This document shows positions 2 through 46,539 of a DNA stretch of 46,540 nt, one piece after another. Position 1 is the stretch's first letter; each line of letters starts with the position of its first letter. A program made the position numbers and the translations under genes. This DNA is from Actinomycetes bacterium (GTDB taxonomy: Bacteria > Actinomycetota > Actinomycetes > Nanopelagicales > Nanopelagicaceae), in NCBI GenBank assembly GCA_025354785.1, contig JANXME010000184.1, positions 1 through 46,540 on the forward strand, in the 5' to 3' direction. A model generated the notes under the pieces. That model searched no databases. It saw nothing but the letters and a program-made list of their open reading frames with translations, and was not told the origin of the DNA.

Positions 2-2580
2 GTTCCTGAGGGTTGGTTTTCTCTAGTAATTCAAGAGCGTGAGCCAGTCGTTGATTGGCTGCCAGCTTACCCAGACTTTGCACGTTCCGTAGCGCGCCCA
101 GTTAACGAAGGTGGTGTATTTAGAACCCACCTTGAATACGAACCTACAGACTGGTTCCCCACCTACCCAGACTTCGCCCGTGGCCCACAGCGCCCTGTTA
201 ATGAAGGTTGGCTTGCATTTATAGACAGAGACGTGGCGCCAGTTTTGTCCTGGCTGCCTACCTACCCAGACTTTGCAGGTCGTTCCGCCCTTCGCCCAGT
301 TGGTGAAGGTTGTTTTACTTTTGTCAACAGAGATGTCGCACCAGCGCTTTCTTGGCTGCCAGCTTACCCAGACTTTGCACGTTCCGTAGCGCGCCCTGTT
401 AATGAAGGTGGAGTATTTAGAACCCATCTTGAATACGAACCTACAGACTGGTTCCCCACCTACCCAGATTTTGCTCGTGGTCCACTTCGCCCAGTTGGTG
501 AAGGTTGTTTTACTTTTGTCAACAGAGACGTAACCCCAGCACTCTCTTGGGCACCTACCTATCCAGACTTTGCAGGTAGATCCGCTCTTCGCCCTGTTAA
601 TGAAGGTTGGTTTACATTCGTAAGTCTAGATGTCGCACCAGCGCTTTCTTGGCTGCCAGCTTACCCAGACTTTGCTCGCGGACCACTTCGCCCAGTTGGT
701 GAAGGTGGTATTTTCCGCACCCATCTTGAGTACGAGCCAACTGATTGGTTCCCCGCCTACCCAGATTTTGCAGGCCGCGCTGCTTTTCGCCCTGTTAATG
801 AAGGTGGAGTATTTAGAACCCACCTTGAATACGAGCCAATTGTAGATTGGCTACCCACCTACCCAGACTTTGCTGGGCGCGGATTACTGAAGCCAGTTGG
901 TGAAGGTTGTTTTACTTTTGTCAACAGAGACGTAACCCCAGCACTCTCTTGGGCACCTACCTATCCAGACTTTGCAGGTAGATCCGCTCTTCGCCCTGTT
1001 AATGAAGGTGGCATTTTCCGCACCCACCTTGAGTACGAACCAACAGACTGGTTTCCAAGTTACCCAGACTTTGCTGGTAGATCCGCTCTTCGCCCTGTTG
1101 GTGAAGGTTGGTTTACTTTTGTCAACCTCGATATCACACCTAAATTGTCTTGGTTGCCCACTTACCCAGACTTCGTTCGCGGACCACTTCGTCCAGTTGG
1201 TGAAGGTGGAGTATTTAGAACCCATCTTGAATACGAGCCAACTGATTGGTTCCCCACCTATCCAGATTTCCCAGGCCGTGGCCCACTTCGCCCTGTTAAT
1301 GAAGGTGGAGTATTTAGAACCCACCTTGAATACGAGCCAATTGTAGATTGGCTACCCACCTACCCAGACTTTGCTGGGCGCGGATTACTGAAGCCAGTTA
1401 ACGAGGGTGGATACTACTTCCAGCGATTCACACCACTGGTCGTTGCTCAACTCTGGTATCCAGATTACCCAGACTTCGTTCGCGGACCACTTCGCCCAGT
1501 TAACGAAGGTGGTGTATTTAGAACCCACCTTGAATACGAGCCAACTGATTGGTTCCCCACCTATCCAGATTTTGCTCGTGGCCCACTTCGTCCAGTTAAT
1601 GAAGGTGGCGTATTCCGCACCCACCGTGAGTACGAACCTACAGACTGGTTCCCAAGTTATCCAGATTTCGTTCGTGGTCCACTTCGTCCAGTTAACGAAG
1701 GTGGTGAGGTCTTCATTAATCGCGATGTTGCGGTTAAGTTGTCATGGCATCCAACATATCCAGATTTCCCAGGCCGTGGTCCACAGCGCCCAGTTAATGA
1801 AGGTGGAGTATTTAGAACCCATCTTGAATACGAGCCAATTGTAGATTGGCTACCCACCTACCCAGACTTTGCTCGTTCCGTAGCGCGCCCAGTTGGTGAA
1901 GGTTGGTTTACTTTTGTCAACAGAGACGTAACCCCAGCGCTCTCTTGGTTGCCCACTTACCCAGACTTTGCTCGTTCCGTAGCGCGTCCAGTTGGTGAAG
2001 GTTGGTTTACTTTTGTCAACAGAGATGTAACCCCAGCGCTTTCTTGGCTGCCAGCTTACCCAGACTTTGCACGTTCCGTAGCGCGCCCAGTTAACGAAGG
2101 TGGTGTATTTAGAACCCACCTTGAATACGAACCTACAGACTGGTTCCCCACCTACCCAGATCGAATCTGGTCAAAGCCAACACCAGTCGGCGAGGGTTGG
2201 TTTACATTCGTAGATCTTGACATAGTACCAAGATTGGCATGGTCCCCGGCATATCCAGACTTCGCCCGTGGCCCACTTCGCCCTGTTAATGAAGGTGGAT
2301 TAGCCCCATTTGTTAATAAGGAAACCTCACTTCTAACTACGTGGCTGCCTACCTATCCAGACTTTGCCCGTGGCCCACGGCGCCCAGTTAATGAGGGTGG
2401 ACTTTCATTCTTAGATCCAGATTATATACCAAAACTGACGTGGCTGCCTACCTATCCAGACTTTGTCCGGTCGCCGACGAGGCCGACATATAACGATCAG
2501 TACTCAATCGATGTGGCGCCAGCTGTGGCGCCCACTCTATCTTGGTCGCCGACCTACCCGGATTTCGTTAGAGTAGCCCC
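2..2580 (+). repeat. Coding tandem repeat array, 26 YPD units of about 96-105 nt
   Basis: YPDF(A/V/P)...RPV(N/G)EG...W(F/L)P(T/A) recurs 26 times. Exact DNA repeats: 786-898 = 1287-1399 (113 nt) and 491-607 = 893-1009 (117 nt). Confidence 0.9.
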
Positions 2581-2830
2581 ACATCCGTTAATAGAAATGG
2601 AATGTAGCACTCCGTTCCAATCCAGAGTCTATAAAAATATAGTCTTAACTGTGACTAGTAATCAAGCACCTCTAGCTCGTAGCATCATCGGTGTTGAAGA
2701 GAGTGCGGGTGTTGCCGGGTCAAAGACCGAAGGTAGTATCACTTCTAAGACGGAAATACAAATTAATGAATCTGAGCCAGTTAAATTGAGCACATCTGAT
2801 ATGGCTCCGATAAAGATAAAAGACGATTAG
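2..2830 (+). CDS. Hyper-repetitive virion-associated protein, 26 WxPxYPDF-type repeats; 5' end outside the window
   Basis: Frame 2 is open from nt 2 (VPEGWFSLVIQEREPVVDWLPAYPDFARSV...) to the stop at 2830. The track start at 233 is an internal GTG (Val of RDVAP). About 32-35 aa repeats, then a unique C-terminal tail. Confidence 0.85.
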   Translation, partial: VPEGWFSLVIQEREPVVDWLPAYPDFARSVARPVNEGGVFRTHLEYEPTDWFPTYPDFARGPQRPVNEGWLAFIDRDVAPVLSWLPTYPDFAGRSALRPVGEGCFTFVNRDVAPALSWLPAYPDFARSVARPVNEGGVFRTHLEYEPTDWFPTYPDFARGPLRPVGEGCFTFVNRDVTPALSWAPTYPDFAGRSALRPVNEGWFTFVSLDVAPALSWLPAYPDFARGPLRPVGEGGIFRTHLEYEPTDWFPAYPDFAGRAAFRPVNEGGVFRTHLEYEPIVDWLPTYPDFAGRGLLKPVGEGCFTFVNRDVTPALSWAPTYPDFAGRSALRPVNEGGIFRTHLEYEPTDWFPSYPDFAGRSALRPVGEGWFTFVNLDITPKLSWLPTYPDFVRGPLRPVGEGGVFRTHLEYEPTDWFPTYPDFPGRGPLRPVNEGGVFRTHLEYEPIVDWLPTYPDFAGRGLLKPVNEGGYYFQRFTPLVVAQLWYPDYPDFVRGPLRPVNEGGVFRTHLEYEPTDWFPTYPDFARGPLRPVNEGGVFRTHREYEPTDWFPSYPDFVRGPLRPVNEGGEVFINRDVAVKLSWHPTYPDFPGRGPQRPVNEGGVFRTHLEYEPIVDWLPTYPDFARSVARPVGEGWFTFVNRDVTPALSWLPTYPDFARSVARPVGEGWFTFVNRDVTPALSWLPAYPDFARSVARPVNEGGVFRTHLEYEPTDWFPTYPDRIWSKPTPVGEGWFTFVDLDIVPRLAWSPAYPDFARGPLRPVNEGGLAPFVNKETSLLTTWLPTYPDFARGPRRPVNEGGLSFLDPDYIPKLTWLPTYPDFVRSPTRPTYNDQYSIDVAPAVAPTLSWSPTYPDFVRVAPHPLIEMECSTPFQSRVYKNIVLTVTSNQAPLARSIIGVEESAGVAGSKTEGSITSKTEIQINESEPVKLSTSDMAPIKIKDD

Positions 2831-9184: not shown

Positions 9185-9219
9185 TTACTGGATGTGGCAT
9201 GGGTCGGTATCATTTATCT

Positions 9220-9708
9220 ATGCAGAACCACAAAGAGAAAGTATGCTCTAAATGTAATATTCCCAAAAATATTTCATGCTTTGGGAAAAGATCTAGTAGG
9301 AAATCGGGCGTGCGATCGGCCTGCAGGCAATGCGAAAGTTTGTATCAAAAGACTCCACAGGCTAAAGCGAGTAAAAGTCGCACATTTAGAAACAATGGTA
9401 GATATATACATGTCGTATTGGCTGCTAAGCGGCGTGGATTGGAGTGGACAATAACTAGAGAAGATTTCAACCGTTTGATGCTAGGTGTATGTACTTACTG
9501 TGGCGATTCTATAGCTGGCACCGGATCAAGTCTTGACAGAGTAGACAATACTAACGGCTACACACTAGATAATATTGTTCCATGTTGCAAAGATTGTAAT
9601 TGGGCACGTAGTGACCGGTTTACTTATGCCGAGATGAAGACACTAATGGGTCCAGCAATACGTGAGATTAAATTATTACGTATGACAAACGCCGATGGAG
9701 TAATATAA
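9220..9708 (+). CDS. HNH endonuclease (putative homing endonuclease)
   Basis: CSKC...CRQC zinc motif, then CTYCGDSIAGTGSSLDRVDNTNGYTLDNIVPCCKDCNWAR (HNH core). Track start 9199; MQNHKEKVCSKC at 9220 preferred. Confidence 0.88.
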   Translation: MQNHKEKVCSKCNIPKNISCFGKRSSRKSGVRSACRQCESLYQKTPQAKASKSRTFRNNGRYIHVVLAAKRRGLEWTITREDFNRLMLGVCTYCGDSIAGTGSSLDRVDNTNGYTLDNIVPCCKDCNWARSDRFTYAEMKTLMGPAIREIKLLRMTNADGVI

Positions 9709-12249: not shown

Positions 12250-13080
12250 GTGTCAAAAGAAACTCAAAAACAATTGTATGCTCAGCGTGTGGCTGCTGGA
12301 CTTTGTACACGCTGTAGTAGCAAGGTTGAGATTGTCGGCAAGAAGAAGTGCGACACTTGTGCCACTTCTTATAGGTCGATGCGTAAAAAGATCAAAGATG
12401 CTGGCTTGTGTGGGCACTGTCTAAAGAATCCAATCGTTGATGGCTATAAATCATGTCAGACCTGCATTGACAATAGACGTGAAGAGTACGATAGTTCTGC
12501 AGAACAGACATATCGACATGACTTAAGAAATAGACATAAAGATGCTGGCTTATGCATCACCTGTGCCAATCCTCATAAGACAGATTCTGTTCAGTGTCAA
12601 GCCTGCATTGATGTAACAGTCACCAAAAATAGCCATAGGAGAATGGATCGGATTTTGAAGAAACTTTGTGTTATGTGCGGGAAAGGTACTCCCATTGATG
12701 GCAAGATTACCTGTGAATTGTGCATCGGCAAGAGTAAAGTACGGTATATTGCAGACATAGAACATCGCAGAGCCCAGGCCAGAATAAACTATCATTCTCG
12801 ATACACAGCCCTCAAAGTCGCTGTGTACCACGCCTATGGTGATATGTGTAAATGTTGTAAATCTGTCGCAAATGAATCATTTACTCTTGATCACGTGAAC
12901 AATGACGGAAATGCTCATCGTGACATATTGTCTACTAAAGGTGGGGAGACTATGTTACGTTGGATTCGCGACAATGATTTCCCATCGTCTATTCAGCTTT
13001 TGTGTGGCAATTGTCATCTTGCTAAGACCAGACAATTGCCATGTACGCATTTGCTGGCCGTTTCTAAGGCCAGCATTTAG
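12250..13080 (+). CDS. HNH endonuclease with four N-terminal CxxC...CxxC zinc modules
   Basis: CTRC..CDTC, CGHC..CQTC, CITC..CQAC, CVMC..CELC, then CKCC...FTLDHVNNDGNAHR...LLCGNCHLAK (HNH); GTG start. Confidence 0.85.
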   Translation: MSKETQKQLYAQRVAAGLCTRCSSKVEIVGKKKCDTCATSYRSMRKKIKDAGLCGHCLKNPIVDGYKSCQTCIDNRREEYDSSAEQTYRHDLRNRHKDAGLCITCANPHKTDSVQCQACIDVTVTKNSHRRMDRILKKLCVMCGKGTPIDGKITCELCIGKSKVRYIADIEHRRAQARINYHSRYTALKVAVYHAYGDMCKCCKSVANESFTLDHVNNDGNAHRDILSTKGGETMLRWIRDNDFPSSIQLLCGNCHLAKTRQLPCTHLLAVSKASI

Positions 13081-36877: not shown

Positions 36878-37843
36878 ATGACAAAATATACACGTCCATT
36901 ACCTAATATAGAAGTAGTAATACAAGATATCGAAGATGCGCTAGCAGCAAGTCAAAAGAGCAGAAATTCATTTACCCTAGATAACTACAAGAAATTTGGT
37001 GGTCTGTTCGATGGCCGCTCATTACGCAGATATGGTGGATTTGAATTTCTCAAGCGGAATAGCAATCTCGATTACAGTGGCGACGAGCCGATTATGCGCT
37101 CCACCACAACTGAATTGAAGAAGGTGTTATTTATACCAGACTGTCATGTACCCTATCATGACGCTAAGGCATGGAACCTTATGATGGCGGCGGCACGTGA
37201 ATTTGAGCCGGATACGATCGTCATTCTAGGCGACTTTGCGGACTTTTACGCGGTCAGCGCGTATGAGAAGGACCCCCGGCGCCCCAATGATCTGTCTGAT
37301 GAACTCGCGATCGTAGAAGAAAAACTCGACGAGCTAGACGCTCTGGGCGCGTCGAAAAAGATTTATATTTGTGGGAATCACGAGGACCGTCTCGAAAGGT
37401 ATCTAATTTCCCGCGCTCCAGCACTCTTTGGCAGTGTGACCATCCCAGCCACTCTACATCTTGCAGAACGCGGCTGGCAGTTCATACAATATAAGAGATC
37501 ATTTAAGCTTGGCAAGTTACATTTAACCCACGACACTGGGACTGCTGGCATTAACGCTCATCGTCAATCAATGGCTGCATTCCAAGGCAGTGTAATCATT
37601 GGTCACACACACCGCATGGAAGTATCGGTCTTGGGTAATGCCGCTGGTGCACCGCAAATTGGTGCAATGTTTGGTTGGTTGGGCGATTTTGACAAGGTTG
37701 ATTATATGCATGCGATCAAAGCCCGTAGAGATTGGGTCCACGGATTCGGCATCGGCTATCAAGAATCGAACGGTGTTATTCATCTACAACCTATTCCGAT
37801 CGTCGAAGGTACTTGCGTAGTAAACGGCAAGCTTATTCGCTAA
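36878..37843 (+). CDS. Calcineurin-like metallophosphoesterase
   Basis: FIPDCHVPYHD, ILGDFADF, GNHEDR, HDTG, GHTHR metal-binding motifs. Confidence 0.85.
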   Translation: MTKYTRPLPNIEVVIQDIEDALAASQKSRNSFTLDNYKKFGGLFDGRSLRRYGGFEFLKRNSNLDYSGDEPIMRSTTTELKKVLFIPDCHVPYHDAKAWNLMMAAAREFEPDTIVILGDFADFYAVSAYEKDPRRPNDLSDELAIVEEKLDELDALGASKKIYICGNHEDRLERYLISRAPALFGSVTIPATLHLAERGWQFIQYKRSFKLGKLHLTHDTGTAGINAHRQSMAAFQGSVIIGHTHRMEVSVLGNAAGAPQIGAMFGWLGDFDKVDYMHAIKARRDWVHGFGIGYQESNGVIHLQPIPIVEGTCVVNGKLIR

Positions 37844-38461: not shown

Positions 38462-38643
38462 TATGCAAATGATTCTTGCTTACACACCTCTCTGGCAATT
38501 TGATCGTTGCCAGCCCGGTTTAGACACCACATCAATCGTGTCTCTGCACTACGTCTGATTCCACTTATGTCGGTGGCGGCACAGTCACAACAAAGAATGA
38601 CCGCCCCCAATACACCTGCTAATGCAACTGTTCTAATACTCAT
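38401..38643 (-). CDS. Small lipoprotein-like Cys-rich protein
   Basis: ATG 38643 overlaps the upstream stop as ATGA; MSIRTVALAGVLGAVILCCDCAATD signal sequence. Confidence 0.6.
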   Translation of the reverse strand: MSIRTVALAGVLGAVILCCDCAATDISGIRRSAETRLMWCLNRAGNDQIAREVCKQESFAYCLQNMPLYHIEKGCGLGAH

Positions 38644-38915
38644 GTTCGCCAATTTTTCCAGGTGGTGTGAGCACCTTTAAGGGCAACCAACTGTCGCTTG
38701 GCCACCCGCTGACCATTACCGCCACATCCTACACAATCTTTGTGTCCGGAATATTCAGTACCGAGCCATGTTTCTCCGGTACCTTCGCAATCATTGCATT
38801 TGCCCTCACACTTTGGACAGACTACAATACGAGTGTCAAATTCGGTCAGGGGCACCGACTCTTCAAATACGTTTCCACAATCGGCATTAGTACAGCTGAA
38901 ATCATAAACTGGCAA
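38640..38915 (-). CDS. Zinc protein: FmdB-like ribbon plus two DnaJ-type CxxCxGxG motifs
   Basis: TTG start at 38915 preceded by AAGGAG (38922-38927 complement); MPVYDFSCTNADCGNVFEE...VVCPKCEGKCNDCEGTGE...CVGCGGNGQ. Confidence 0.65.
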   Translation of the reverse strand: MPVYDFSCTNADCGNVFEESVPLTEFDTRIVVCPKCEGKCNDCEGTGETWLGTEYSGHKDCVGCGGNGQRVAKRQLVALKGAHTTWKNWRT

Positions 38916-40206
38916 GTTGTGTCTCCTTGGGCAAGTCAACTTCTTCGACCACAGCAAGTTTCAGCAATTCGGCGCTCACTGCTTCGTTATAGTTACCTAG
39001 ATTCTTGAGTGTCGCGTCGCCTTCTATGCCCTTAAGTTTGCCCCAGCTACGAATAACCAGATCTTGAATTAATTCTTGCGCAGCCTTTTCAGCAAACCAA
39101 CGAATGACCGTGCCACGGTCGACAACAGCTTCGCCATTCAGTAGCTTGCCATCTGCAAATTTAGCTACCAATTCTTCTTCTGTACTTGTATATGTGCGTG
39201 CTTCTCGATAAAGGTCTTGACCCTTCAGGCGCAGCCACTCAATCGGCAACGGCTCTACGTCAATTACCCCTGGGTTCGCTAGTGCATTTAGAATCTGCAT
39301 GCGTTTGGTCTTCTCCCGCACTTCTATAATCTTCTTCTTCAACCCAACCGCTAAGGTTTGTTTGAAGATCTCTAAGGTGTCGTATCCATTGGTTTTGGCG
39401 AGATCGTCGTCGATCTTGGGCTGATCCAGACGCAATACTTGTTGGATTTTAAATTCTGCAGAAACAGTTTTGCCTGCATCAGCACCAAATTTATCGTTAA
39501 GTGTCATAACTATCGATCTCACGTCGCCCTTTACAGCCCCCAATAAGACATCCACGAGCTCTGGTTGTTTTAATTCCTCATGTGCAATCAACCATTTTTG
39601 CATAGTAAAGCATCCGAGGGGCCATCTTTCTAACGACTTATCTGGCTTTACTATGGCGGATTGTCCATCAACAACAGCAACACAACCTAGTTCTACTTTG
39701 GCGTCGTCTGGCAACGGAACCAAGATCGTCGATTCAGCCTGTTTACGTCGAAGGTCTTCTTCAACCAAAAGTTCGATTAGGTTTGGTGGTTCCTTTGCGA
39801 TCTTGATCACCAAAGGTTCGTCAATTCCAGGCTTCTTCTTCCATGATATACTCGGTTCCAAAAATACTGAGGCAGATACTGTAATACTACCAGTTGATTC
39901 ATTCTCTCGCATGCCTACACTATTAAAGGCGATGGCTTGCTTCTCCTGGGTCGCCAAATAATTTTCCACTGTTTGAGTTAGAACTGGGGCATAGAAGACA
40001 TCTGCGCCGCCAGCAACTTTCACAACACGCTTACGTGTCACCTTACGGAATCCACCCTTTAACGCCGCCTGGGTTAGATGATTTGGTAGTATGTCTTTGA
40101 CTTCATTCCAATACTTGTCAAATAGAGGCGTTAATTCAGTCTTTGAAATATTGACATCAATAGAATATGCCGTAGCTTGCTGCTTCATTTCACCAGTGAT
40201 TGTCAT
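38902..40206 (-). CDS. Trigger-factor-like chaperone (Tig homologue), divergent
   Basis: 434 aa; 'LKGGFRKVTRKRVV' matches the TF GFRxGK loop region; 'GKTVSAEFKIQQVLRLDQPKIDDDLAKTNGYDTLEIFKQTLAVGLKKKIIEVREKTKRMQILNALANPGVIDVEPLPIEWLRLKGQ' matches the TF C-terminal chaperone domain. Confidence 0.72.
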   Translation of the reverse strand: MTITGEMKQQATAYSIDVNISKTELTPLFDKYWNEVKDILPNHLTQAALKGGFRKVTRKRVVKVAGGADVFYAPVLTQTVENYLATQEKQAIAFNSVGMRENESTGSITVSASVFLEPSISWKKKPGIDEPLVIKIAKEPPNLIELLVEEDLRRKQAESTILVPLPDDAKVELGCVAVVDGQSAIVKPDKSLERWPLGCFTMQKWLIAHEELKQPELVDVLLGAVKGDVRSIVMTLNDKFGADAGKTVSAEFKIQQVLRLDQPKIDDDLAKTNGYDTLEIFKQTLAVGLKKKIIEVREKTKRMQILNALANPGVIDVEPLPIEWLRLKGQDLYREARTYTSTEEELVAKFADGKLLNGEAVVDRGTVIRWFAEKAAQELIQDLVIRSWGKLKGIEGDATLKNLGNYNEAVSAELLKLAVVEEVDLPKETQLASL

Positions 40207-42305
40207 TTAGTATCCAAAGTGCTCATGTGATTATGTTTAGTGACTGTCCAGATCTGATCGAATTTAACTTGATGTTTTATATGGTCGTTATGTGTGACGA
40301 TAAATATACTACTCTTGCCGTTCGTACGCATGTAGTCCAAATAATTGAACACATTGCCTGTATTGTATTCATCCAGTGGACCAAAAATTTCGTCTAAGCA
40401 CATGATATTGACGCCTGCCCCACATTGAGAGGCAAGCTGCCAGAATGCACCGATAAAGGCGAGCGTGATCTGTTGACGTTCTCCACCGCTATATAATGCG
40501 AACGGAACCTCGTGTTTGTGTCCTTCCCGTACAACAATTTGCAAGTCTGATGCCAATTCACCATCCGCTTTTTCGCGATACTGAGAAACCCAGACCTTTA
40601 CACTGCCATCTGATATGATATCTATATATTTATCTAGTGATTGGTTTAGTATGGATAGAACATTATCTAACTTAAATGCTTTGATGCCTTTATCGCCAAA
40701 TAGACGCTCTAATACTCGCATGTGCTTAACTTCATATTCTGCAGCATGTATTTTATCTTGCGTAAGGCTAACTACTGTATTGTAGTCGTCATATCTTTTG
40801 GCCGATGCTTCCCAGTTTTTAAGCTCAAGCTCTTTAGACGACTTTTGAGCTAATAATGCCAATCTTTGTTGTTCAACCCCATACTGTATTGAATCTGGGC
40901 GTGTCCCCAATACATCATCTTTCTTCTGCAACAATCCAAGTCGAGCATTACAGTCTGCTATATCTTGACGATATACTTTCATTAATTCTAATAACGGAGC
41001 TACGTCATCACTATTCTTTTTAGCCCTGAGATCTAATTTTAGCAAGACATCTGTTTCGCAATCTTTGACAATTATCTCAAGTTTATTTTTATTAGATTGT
41101 ATTCTTTCGGCCAGCGATGTAAGCTCCATGTTGATCAATTCTCTGTGGCGTAGTATATGTTCTATAGTTACATTGGTGCGACATCTAGAACATTTGCCAG
41201 CGCCAACCATAAGCTGTTCTAGATCAAATCTACGAGCAATGGTTTGCCCATTTAACTCGGCAATTTCAGTTTCATATTGAACAATGGCGTATGGACGTGG
41301 CTCTTGACGTATCAGATCGCAATCTTGTGAGTATGTTCCATACAATGTATCCAACATGGTTTGTGTCTTGAGTAGATTTTGGTCTGTTGCTCTAATATTA
41401 TTAATTACTTCTGTAACATCCAATTTAATGGCATATTTGTCAGCGTCCCAGTTCTTCTGCAATATACTAATTGACGTAAGCTTGATGTCACAATTTGACA
41501 TCTGCAGATCTAATGAATCAATGGACGATTGAAGTAATGTTTGGTCTTGACTATTGGGTTTGGTAAATGTTATTTGGCCTAAACCATCGAGTTTAGATTC
41601 CAGACGCGATAATTCCGACTCAGCAGTAGATATGTCTTCGCGAATTTTCACTATACGTGTATCCCATGCTTTTAGATCGCTTAGTTCGGCAATAACTTGC
41701 ATGCGCTCTTTATGCGCGCCACCTATAAATCTTAATGTTTGCTGTTGGGCTAAGTATGCTACGGACATAAATTGTTCATAGTCCATGTCGATTATGTCCA
41801 ATATCTTTTTGCGCGTGGCTTTTAGATCGAGTCTGACATCACCAACTCCGCGATTCGAGCTTCGTTCATCGATCCAGATATTTTCATTCCAGCGTTCAAG
41901 ATATACATCAGTACCACTTAGACGTAGGCCAGAATTGTGCATTTCAGATGGTCCACCGTCGTCACCTGACAATTTTTCGTCTGGATATTTGTCAGTTTTG
42001 CGCCATTTTCGCGCATCTGTTATACGCCATTTAGCGCCATTTTTGTCTAAAAGTACGAGTTGACCAAAATATTTACCAAGAAATTCATTGATAACTTTAT
42101 CGGCGCCACAACCAGACGGGTTTTCACCAAATAGTATGTGGCATATAGCATGAAATAAGCTCGATTTGCCGCTTCCATTACTGTTTCCGTTGCGATCCAG
42201 ATTGACACCCTCTAACAACACGGACCCCTGCTTGTCTAGCTGAATGGTCTTATGTATGCCATAGCTAAACAAGCCACTTGGATTGATACTTATTATTTTA
42301 AACAT
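40203..42305 (-). CDS. Rad50/SbcC-like recombination nuclease ATPase (T4 gp46-like)
   Basis: Walker A GNSNGSGKSS, coiled coil with CSRC zinc hook, SGGERQQITLAFIGAFW signature, CLDEIFGPLD Walker B. Confidence 0.88.
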   Translation of the reverse strand: MFKIISINPSGLFSYGIHKTIQLDKQGSVLLEGVNLDRNGNSNGSGKSSLFHAICHILFGENPSGCGADKVINEFLGKYFGQLVLLDKNGAKWRITDARKWRKTDKYPDEKLSGDDGGPSEMHNSGLRLSGTDVYLERWNENIWIDERSSNRGVGDVRLDLKATRKKILDIIDMDYEQFMSVAYLAQQQTLRFIGGAHKERMQVIAELSDLKAWDTRIVKIREDISTAESELSRLESKLDGLGQITFTKPNSQDQTLLQSSIDSLDLQMSNCDIKLTSISILQKNWDADKYAIKLDVTEVINNIRATDQNLLKTQTMLDTLYGTYSQDCDLIRQEPRPYAIVQYETEIAELNGQTIARRFDLEQLMVGAGKCSRCRTNVTIEHILRHRELINMELTSLAERIQSNKNKLEIIVKDCETDVLLKLDLRAKKNSDDVAPLLELMKVYRQDIADCNARLGLLQKKDDVLGTRPDSIQYGVEQQRLALLAQKSSKELELKNWEASAKRYDDYNTVVSLTQDKIHAAEYEVKHMRVLERLFGDKGIKAFKLDNVLSILNQSLDKYIDIISDGSVKVWVSQYREKADGELASDLQIVVREGHKHEVPFALYSGGERQQITLAFIGAFWQLASQCGAGVNIMCLDEIFGPLDEYNTGNVFNYLDYMRTNGKSSIFIVTHNDHIKHQVKFDQIWTVTKHNHMSTLDTK

Positions 42306-43422
42306 TGGAGATGTATTTTAATCCGAGTTTTTCAACATATGCCACATCCACCTTATCCATGTCGCCAGACTTGGTTGCCAGGAATGTCTTCCATTCATCT
42401 GCGTCGGACATGGGTCCAGATGTGTTTGGCGCGCTAACAGTAGTATCGTAACTGAGCTTTATGTCTATCGTGCGCGCTTTAGCGCTTGCCGTCAGTTTAG
42501 TTTTCCATTGGTCTAAATCGAGATCGTTTAGAAGATCACTAGGTCCGAATATGGTCAATTTGATTATATTGTCCGCCCAATCGTCAATACCTTCAGTGGC
42601 GGCAAATATCAATTGTTCGATTGTGTCAGCTTTCCAGCTAACCTTCATAAATCTTGGTGCGACAGTATGCGCAAGACTATGCGCGGTAATTGTTGTACTG
42701 GCCGCATCACCTAGTTTAGATAGTGAACCCCACATATATCCACGATCAGAGCCTTCATCGCCCCAATTGTGTTGCATTGGCGCTCCTATATAATACCCTT
42801 CGCAATCGCTGAGTCCAACGATCTTTTGGTATTTATGATTATCCCCCGCCAATACCAGATCAAATCCTTTTTTGTCAAAAGAAGAAACAGAGAGGCCCTC
42901 TTGTGCCTGCGTCCCGTTGTGATACCATGATCCAAGAATGATGCCGTGAAATACGCATATGTTCCAATCAGCATCTGGAGATATTACAAAATCTTTTGGT
43001 TCATGTCCAGCCGGTACAGCATGTATGTCTACTATATTTCCAGTTTTGGTTTCTAGACGATATACTTTACGCTGGTCCATTATGGTTATGTTTGGTAGGT
43101 CTTTGGAGTACATACCCACATGGCTCATTGTGTGCATTTTGAAATCATTCTTAGTTAGACGGTCATGGTTGCCTACTAATGCATAGAATGGTATGCCTGA
43201 TTCAGATATCTTTTTGAGCATTGTGTCAGACATAAGCGCAGCCTCATACATTGGATTGCGACTCATGTAGCGGTCACCGCCAAATAGTATAAAGTCTGCA
43301 CCAAGCCTGATAGCACTATCTAGAATTTGTTCCTCGACAGCAGCAACATCCTCTAGTCTAACGCCATTAGTATAATGATGATAATGTATGTCTGAATATG
43401 CTATGAAATACAAGGAATTCAT
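42298..43422 (-). CDS. Mre11/SbcD-like nuclease (T4 gp47-like)
   Basis: YSDIHYHH, FGGDRY, VGNHDR, FHG, AGDNHKYQ motifs; paired with the gp46-like gene. Confidence 0.85.
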   Translation of the reverse strand: MNSLYFIAYSDIHYHHYTNGVRLEDVAAVEEQILDSAIRLGADFILFGGDRYMSRNPMYEAALMSDTMLKKISESGIPFYALVGNHDRLTKNDFKMHTMSHVGMYSKDLPNITIMDQRKVYRLETKTGNIVDIHAVPAGHEPKDFVISPDADWNICVFHGIILGSWYHNGTQAQEGLSVSSFDKKGFDLVLAGDNHKYQKIVGLSDCEGYYIGAPMQHNWGDEGSDRGYMWGSLSKLGDAASTTITAHSLAHTVAPRFMKVSWKADTIEQLIFAATEGIDDWADNIIKLTIFGPSDLLNDLDLDQWKTKLTASAKARTIDIKLSYDTTVSAPNTSGPMSDADEWKTFLATKSGDMDKVDVAYVEKLGLKYISNV

Positions 43423-44316: not shown

Positions 44317-46539
44317 TTATAGTGACAGCATGAAGTGTGCACGTCCACAGCGGTTAAGCTCCTGGACTTGCTCGGGTTTAATGTAGGCGTTGTCTTTGAG
44401 TAATACAGCATGTCCTCTGTTTAGCATCTTATCTGAGATACTGGATGCTGTTGTATTGAGCATGGTCAGAATACGATTTGCAGTGGGCATATCTTCTGCA
44501 TAAAAAGCGTTGATTGGAACTCCACTTATTGCATTGATTGGTAGAATTGAGTTGACATTTAATTGATTACCACCTGCCCAGAACTTGTCTTCCTTGATAA
44601 CCCCTGACATAATAGCTAGTTGTCCGTCGATTAGACTAGGATATATTGAAGCCGCTAGCGGACTCCACACCATCTGTGTAAAACTACCCATTTGATCGCC
44701 ATACTTTAATTGTAAATAGGGATTTCCATTGGCGGCGGTTTTCATTATCTTAGATTCAATTAATCCAAGCACAATGGCATGTGAGCCGACTTGTTGCTCA
44801 TTCATTTGGCTTGGTGTAATAAAATTTATATTGGGGAATAAGTTAAATAATGCCTGATACTGCAATACAGGATGCGAAGAGATGTAGAAATTGAGCACCG
44901 CCCTCTCTAGATCTAACTTTTCTTGTTCAGTGTAGTCACTCAGCGCGGGTGCTACCATAGACTCAACTTCTAGCCTTATCTCGTCAGGTGGCATTTTATC
45001 TTCAAATTTTTTAATAATCTTTTGCATTAGCTCGCAGTTGTCAATCTTGGTGCGCATATCATATTGTTTATCCCAATTGAATGCGCCAGATTTAACTAGA
45101 TTTTCTTTTACTAATTTGTTGACGCGCCCATGTTTCGATATGCGCATATGGAAATCTAAATAATCCTTATAAGGGCCATTAGTTGTACGATCGCTTATGA
45201 TTAGTTCTAGCGCTGTGTCGCCCAATTGGCGTATAGACAAAAGCCCCATATATATTGACTGACCGTCTGTTTGAAACATTGGACCAGAATGATTGATATG
45301 TGGCGGAAGTAATTTAACACCCTTTTGTATAATAGCAGCCAACAATATCTTGAGCTTATCATTGTCGTCAAGATTCACATTAAGCAATGTGGTATAGTAT
45401 TCCATTGGATAATGGGTTTCCAGATGGGCAGTTGCAAAAGATATATATGAATACAACGCAGCGTGTGACTTATTCCAGTTGTATCTTGCTGAACCAGCAA
45501 GTTTGCGTGTTGTCTCCGTCATGAATTCTTGACTAAATCCATTGGCGACACCTCTTTCAACTAGTTTATCTTGAACTGCTTTGAATTTACCAGCATCCTT
45601 CTTACCAATCGCGACACGATATTCGTCAGCTTCTTCATCTGTGAATTTGCCGACGATTTTAGACAGAGCCATGATCTGTTCTTGATACATCGGGATGCCG
45701 AACGACTCCCTAAATGTTTCTTCTAGCAATGGGTGCCATACTTCTACCGGTTCGCGTCCATGGCGGCGATCGAAGTAGTTAACCATCATTGATTTGCCAC
45801 CAGAGCCAGATTTCGGAAGCATCGGGCCTGGACGGTATAGGGCATTTAGTGCCATCAAGTGGTCAAATTTGTCTGGCGCCAAAGCTCGTGCAGCACCTCG
45901 GATGCCTGAACTGTCATACTGGAAGACTGACACAAAGCGTCCACCGGCAATGGTAGCATAGGTGGCTGGGTCTTGACCGGGCCAAATTGGAAAGTTATGG
46001 AAATCAAGTGTGACTCCGTGGCGTTTTTGGATTAGGGCCATGGTTTGGTGCACTAGATCCATTGTTTTCAGACCCAACATGTCTAGCTTAAGTAAGCCGA
46101 GTTCTGCTAGGTCACCCATGTCATATTGGGTGACAAGGAAGCCTTCTTTAGAGTCACGGATCAAAGGTACATAGTCAAGCAACGGCTCATTCGAGATCAC
46201 AATGCCGGCTGCGTGCGCACCAAGGTTGCGAACGTTGCCTTCCAACTTCATAGAAACGTCGATCCAGTCTTTGTGCTCCGACATTTTTTCTCTGACTCGT
46301 GGATCGTCTTCTAGAATGTCTTTCAGGGTGGTGTCCGCATCAACATCGCCAATGAGTTTCCCGATTGCATTTCGTACTGATGATGGTATGCCTAGCGCTC
46401 GACCAACATTGTCAGCAGCACCTTTGGATGCCATCGTCTGAAAGGTTACTATTTGAGCAACCCGGTCCTTGCCATATTTATTAACTAGGTATTCAATGAC
46501 TTCGCCTCGACGTTCTTGGGAGATGTCTGTGTCAATATC
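44317..46539 (-). CDS. DNA polymerase III alpha-like (C-family, DnaE-type), 5' truncated by window edge
   Basis: Frame open to the edge: DIDTDISQERRGEVIEYLVNKYGKDRVAQIVTFQTMASK; then LGAHAAGIVIS, LGLLKLDMLGLKT, ALYRPGPM, YQEQIMALSK, FNKSHA-like 'WNKSHAALYSYISF'. Confidence 0.9.
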   Translation of the reverse strand, partial: DIDTDISQERRGEVIEYLVNKYGKDRVAQIVTFQTMASKGAADNVGRALGIPSSVRNAIGKLIGDVDADTTLKDILEDDPRVREKMSEHKDWIDVSMKLEGNVRNLGAHAAGIVISNEPLLDYVPLIRDSKEGFLVTQYDMGDLAELGLLKLDMLGLKTMDLVHQTMALIQKRHGVTLDFHNFPIWPGQDPATYATIAGGRFVSVFQYDSSGIRGAARALAPDKFDHLMALNALYRPGPMLPKSGSGGKSMMVNYFDRRHGREPVEVWHPLLEETFRESFGIPMYQEQIMALSKIVGKFTDEEADEYRVAIGKKDAGKFKAVQDKLVERGVANGFSQEFMTETTRKLAGSARYNWNKSHAALYSYISFATAHLETHYPMEYYTTLLNVNLDDNDKLKILLAAIIQKGVKLLPPHINHSGPMFQTDGQSIYMGLLSIRQLGDTALELIISDRTTNGPYKDYLDFHMRISKHGRVNKLVKENLVKSGAFNWDKQYDMRTKIDNCELMQKIIKKFEDKMPPDEIRLEVESMVAPALSDYTEQEKLDLERAVLNFYISSHPVLQYQALFNLFPNINFITPSQMNEQQVGSHAIVLGLIESKIMKTAANGNPYLQLKYGDQMGSFTQMVWSPLAASIYPSLIDGQLAIMSGVIKEDKFWAGGNQLNVNSILPINAISGVPINAFYAEDMPTANRILTMLNTTASSISDKMLNRGHAVLLKDNAYIKPEQVQELNRCGRAHFMLSL

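Follow-up and report, generated by a model that had tools for sequence, protein, structure and literature searches.

The DNA analysed here, referred to as the window, comprises 46,540 nucleotides and encodes on its minus strand a run of replication and recombination genes together with a trigger factor-like gene. The phage's DNA polymerase III alpha subunit, DnaE (positions 44317–46539, recognised with Pfam), runs off the contig; an ORF of 1258 residues is similarly placed upstream in L085, the contig carrying the nearest relative of the protein under study. Further along the same strand follow an SbcD-like nuclease subunit (42298–43422; phrog_100, E = 5.8e-25; Pfam Metallophos), an SbcC-like nuclease subunit (40203–42305; phrog_77, E = 1.6e-63), the trigger factor homologue P0001 (38902–40206, 434 amino acids) and a zinc-ribbon protein (38640–38915), such that SbcC, SbcD and, further off, DnaE all lie upstream of P0001. 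A reading frame of this length had been reported by the first-pass annotation with its strand unstated; it is real, with 434 codons open on the minus strand and a plus strand that is riddled with stop codons in the same interval. The stop codon of the sbcC-like gene and the start codon of P0001 overlap by four bases (ATGA), and the 3' end of P0001 is overlapped by the zinc-ribbon gene, which probably starts with TTG at position 38915, is preceded by AAGGAG and, with this start, reaches 41.9 bits against Pfam Zn_ribbon_8, above the cut-off. On the basis of these overlaps, the gene arrangement suggests that translation of P0001 may be coupled to that of sbcC and of the zinc-ribbon gene.

The plus strand is occupied by a long tail module including a tail sheath, a baseplate J-like protein and others. 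The tail sheath is 48–50% identical to that of Virus Rctr197k. Two proteins with cysteine pairs and, by eye, HNH-endonuclease-like motifs break up this module (9199–9708 and 12250–13080, plus strand); Pfam searches at 1e-3 returned no match for either. In Rctr197k an annotated putative homing endonuclease adjoins the sheath gene. A second metallophosphoesterase besides SbcD is encoded on the opposite strand (36878–37843, plus strand; phrog_221, E = 4.5e-37), and positions 2–2830 (plus strand) encode a protein of tandem repeats of about 33 residues (YPDFARGPLRPVNEGG...; DNA period about 99 bases) with only a weak MORN-like match in Pfam.

With regard to the relationship of P0001, the NCBIfam profile tig (TIGR00115) matched with 43.4 bits and E = 2e-11, residues 75–317 aligning with profile positions 60–292 of 410, while the equivalog cut-off of 180.2 bits was reached neither by P0001 nor by its best-scoring relative (115.6 bits). 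Direct comparison with bacterial trigger factors yielded a significant core at approximately residues 215–318. Among the first six family members from phage contigs, five matched tig (best E = 1.5e-33), and a profile built from these six sequences retrieved eight sequences from the PDB, all of them trigger factors (1w26, E = 1.2e-13); with 13 members, the profile retrieved ten, again all trigger factors (1t11, 1.5e-21; 3gty, 4.6e-20; 1w26, 9e-20). In hhalign, run as a single comparison against bacterial trigger factors, residues 12–334 of P0001 aligned with residues 11–316 of the Escherichia coli protein at a probability of 99.7% and E = 1e-25. Profile matches were significant for the trigger factor superfamily and for no other family. 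P0001 is thus homologous to bacterial trigger factor over the N-domain, the FKBP-like domain and the start of the C-domain, as shown by computation. That the similarity is due to chance or convergence might be argued from the single-sequence searches with P0001 against Pfam and, with phmmer, against the PDB, both of which were empty; as independent profile and structure searches all lead to trigger factor alone and the family profile refutes it, this explanation is ruled out and its probability is practically nil.

Two AlphaFold models based on alignments of the phage family had mean pLDDT values of 80.2 and 84.5 and pTM values of 0.60 and 0.61. The predicted N-terminal, ribosome-docking-like domain (residues ~1–122, positions 39841–40206, minus strand) has a beta-beta-alpha...beta layout, with strands, a helix at residues 22–39, short helices at 42–49 and 58–64, a helix at 73–86 and strands at 91–116, and it is here that the hhalign match sets in, at residue 12 against residue 11 of E. 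coli trigger factor. After a helix at residues 143–158 follow an FKBP-like domain at the position of the PPIase domain (residues ~159–259, positions 39430–39732, minus strand), with FKBP-type strands forming the predicted sheet, and a C-terminal helical domain corresponding to the arms or cradle (residues ~260–434, positions 38905–39429, minus strand) with long helices at 278–309, 322–340 and 364–391; Pfam Trigger_C was matched by three relatives. The order of elements is that of trigger factor. Foldseek retrieved eight PDB chains below 1e-3, all of them bacterial or chloroplast trigger factors, followed by mostly FKBP and SlyD domains, while no similar structure was present in the viral structure library BFVD. 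The alignments with E. coli trigger factor and 3gty span about 470 columns and thus nearly the full length. TM-scores of the best full-length matches were 0.35–0.45, low global values that may be due either to different inter-domain angles or to poor prediction of these angles (pTM 0.6). Computation thus shows a predicted trigger factor-like fold with arms, in which the three-domain layout of N-domain, FKBP-type domain and helical arms is present and the relative placement of the domains has low pTM.

The first-pass annotation had proposed a phage-encoded, full-length trigger factor homologue and had quoted several strings in its favour, all of which are present in the protein (GGFRKVTRKRV at residues 51–61, VELGCVAVVDGQ at approximately 171–182, LGCFTMQKWL and the GKTVSAEFKIQQVLRLDQPKIDDDLAKTNGYDTLEIFKQTL transition). 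The homology to trigger factor is borne out by tig, the family profile, hhalign and Foldseek alike. Its extension over the full length holds by sequence up to about residue 334 and, beyond that, mainly by predicted fold. A missing profile match together with a fold lacking the arms had been named as grounds for giving up the idea; profiles and predicted fold point only to trigger factor.

Relatives were reached via the tail sheath shared with Rctr197k, which identified 21 related IMG/VR contigs. No relatives emerged from single-sequence scans with P0001 of viral contigs and genome contigs, with SbcC of viral contigs, or with the sheath of genome contigs, and Rctr197k itself has neither a trigger factor-like nor an SbcC-like ORF according to the family profiles. 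Five of the sheath-related contigs contained an SbcC match, and all five carry a trigger factor-like gene, three of them recognised also by the tig profile with up to 115.6 bits. A scan with an SbcC alignment then yielded 80 loci. Altogether, 15 IMG/VR contigs, a number of them with the related tail sheath, have a trigger factor-like gene at a distance of 0–3.4 kb downstream of sbcC; among 3149 ORFs in 107 loci no further one matched the trigger factor-like profile at E < 0.1. A weak tig match in contig G079 was rejected as a low-complexity repeat, and a search for close pairs with L094 as query returned identical copies only.

The relatives also encode small cysteine-rich proteins. Zinc-ribbon-like genes lie between sbcD and sbcC in L083 (1589–1777), L084 (6089–6271) and L087 (4913–5125), and one follows the trigger factor-like gene in L085 (7356–7550), as does the zinc-ribbon gene in the window; the Pfam search of such genes covered those of L085 and the window. 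Another cysteine-containing protein is encoded 3' of the trigger factor-like gene in L084 (11766–12362), L086 (5323–6210) and L083 (6082–6699). Weak helix-turn-helix matches in two of these indicate that it is possibly a transcription regulator.

Phylogenetic analysis placed 13 phage proteins apart from 17 bacterial sequences with a support of 97/100, P0001 standing beside the protein from L085; the rows of L177, L083 and L087 are long or odd in composition, such that their placement is unsure. The SbcC tree recovered the same groups as that of the trigger factor-like proteins, i.e., the window with L085, L083 with L087, L086 with L092, L090 with L094 and L100 with L101, in sequences that are divergent and partly on long branches. 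This agreement points to joint vertical inheritance and constitutes good, if not final, evidence that the trigger factor-like gene has been stably inherited beside sbcCD in one phage clade.

The same data bear on whether P0001 could be an ordinary bacterial tig, either a host gene or a mis-assembly, on a mis-binned contig. The contig (G000:C49) is binned in a bacterial MAG of 1.95 Mb, and its GC content of 45%, compared with about 50% for the two pieces of the MAG that bear tig, is not decisive on binning. Against this stand the canonical tig that the MAG already has, in two contig-end pieces of which the second adjoins clpP, and the affinities of P0001, which scores at best 79 bits with phage proteins vs. 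51 bits with the bacterial trigger factors tested and falls inside the phage clade. A bacterial origin is therefore very improbable, and it is refuted by the phage relatives with the same gene order. The gene is phage-encoded, as had been proposed, in view of the tail sheath, baseplate J-like protein, SbcCD and DnaE on the contig and the homologues on phage contigs.

In the docking loop, the family departs from bacterial trigger factors. Among the clear bacterial proteins compared, GFRxGK is kept throughout and the final proline in nearly all, whereas GFRxGKxP is kept by none of the 13 phage members and GFR by two, P0001 and the protein from L085. P0001 reads GGFRKVTRKR, with the remnant GGFRK at residues 51–55 (40042–40056, minus strand), and GFRQGTP occupies this place in L085, while most other members have a segment rich in lysine and glycine, e.g., KGKKAKGG, and L083 is without it; within the loop, the alignment could be off by a few residues. 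The absence of GKxP from P0001, recognised by the first-pass annotation, is therefore a property of the whole family. With the motif missing from every one of the 13 members, there is no ground for presuming ribosome association, and P0001 is not filed as a canonical trigger factor because the defining docking feature was looked for and is absent. We regard it as a trigger factor homologue that is not canonical and probably works like trigger factor.

In the FKBP-like domain, a joint alignment places L, D and A of P0001 at the sites of F198, Y221 and F233, respectively, of the E. coli protein. By computation from the aligned sequences, the FKBP pocket is predicted to be degenerate in the phage family, with the aromatic residues mostly lost. 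The actinobacterial-type trigger factors compared, including those of the relatives of the host MAG, are also non-aromatic at these positions, so the pocket residues alone do not rule out catalysis. The protein from L085, with 343 amino acids, lacks just the block corresponding to residues 159–259 of P0001, which argues that the PPIase block is dispensable in the phage lineage.

We consider it likely that P0001 is a phage-lineage trigger factor homologue acting as an ATP-independent cradle chaperone whose ribosome docking is altered or lost. The cradle-type, ATP-independent action is suggested by the trigger factor fold, and phage proteins are the presumed clients as the gene is phage-encoded; a dedication to large repeat and fibre proteins, as put forward by the first-pass annotation, is speculative. 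The N-domain and the C-terminal arms would bind unfolded segments of phage proteins during and just after synthesis, PPIase catalysis would be dispensable, and ribosome docking would either proceed via a re-made basic loop or have been given up. That ribosome contact is retained is somewhat less likely than not.

The conserved place of the gene in a recombination cluster could also point to a client other than structural proteins. P0001 would then be an off-ribosome chaperone dedicated to assembling the neighbouring SbcC-SbcD and a Holliday resolvase rather than serving new phage proteins in general. The overlap with sbcC, the missing docking motif and the retention of the gene near sbcCD, with RuvC- or RusA-like resolvases in between in relatives, are consistent with such a role, but adjacency of phage genes often reflects shared timing only, and among the relatives the trigger factor-like gene lies anywhere between 0 and 3.4 kb from sbcC, the genes in the gap not being the same, which makes this explanation rather unlikely. 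Still less probable is that P0001 competes with the host trigger factor or serves as its decoy, or that it modifies ribosomes much like plant Tig2: proteins derived from trigger factor can take such roles (PMC11731035), and the basic lysine- and glycine-rich loop at the docking site of most relatives could touch rRNA, but the arms and the C-domain are retained and would be needless for a simple decoy. Within the preferred interpretation as a cradle chaperone, we put forward, with some reservation, that the phage lineage possesses its own stably inherited trigger factor chaperone, in which the docking signature has been swapped for another basic loop or the protein has moved off the ribosome, the PPIase domain is optional, and phage proteins may fold without recourse to the first chaperone of the host.

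Phages are known to carry tRNAs, ribosomal proteins and chaperonins. In the open-access literature, no earlier report of a phage trigger factor was found: a Southern Ocean virus survey could not detect an analogue of trigger factor among its viral proteins (PMC8407431), and the term is absent from the full text of the huge-phage paper (PMC7162821). A canonical trigger factor query against the phage collection INPHARED matched 34 records, of which those with readable neighbours are mostly bacterial tig-clpP/X stretches. MT839851 and CAKLQH020000005 were rejected as pieces of bacterial chromosomes with tig-clpP-clpX, and L173, L175, L176 and L177 because ClpP and/or ClpX are encoded nearby. L174 and L178–L180 have no ClpP/X within the stretch; L178 and L179 start like lipoproteins and may not be trigger factors. 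The natural variants in the phage family, all without the docking signature and one also devoid of the PPIase domain, put the importance of the individual parts of trigger factor to the test, and the family raises in concrete form the question of whether co-translational folding is taken over by phages.

Compared with bacterial trigger factor (tig, TIGR00115; PDB 1w26, 3gty and 1t11), P0001 has the same domain order and a similar length and is alignable over residues 12–334 by sequence and over nearly the whole length by fold. On the other hand, identity in the profile alignment is only 12–13%, GFRxGKxP is absent, the FKBP aromatic residues are mostly gone, and the gene resides beside sbcCD and not beside clpPX as does bacterial tig. 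PHROG 26774, a family of unknown function, is matched end to end by bona fide trigger factor, and P0001 aligns with it collinearly, though weakly (E = 0.067); it resembles canonical trigger factor, possibly stems from bacterial contamination of phage records and is not linked to members of the phage clade. Chloroplast TIG1 (PDB 7zgi), a Foldseek match of P0001, likewise consists of three domains and is about 18% identical to E. coli trigger factor (PMC5587573), but it is organellar and has a marked putative ribosome-binding site (PMC5587573), whereas the phage family is without the motif. Plant Tig2 is similar to P0001 in being derived from trigger factor with altered domain content; it consists of the ribosome-binding domain only and has a role in ribosome biogenesis (PMC11731035).
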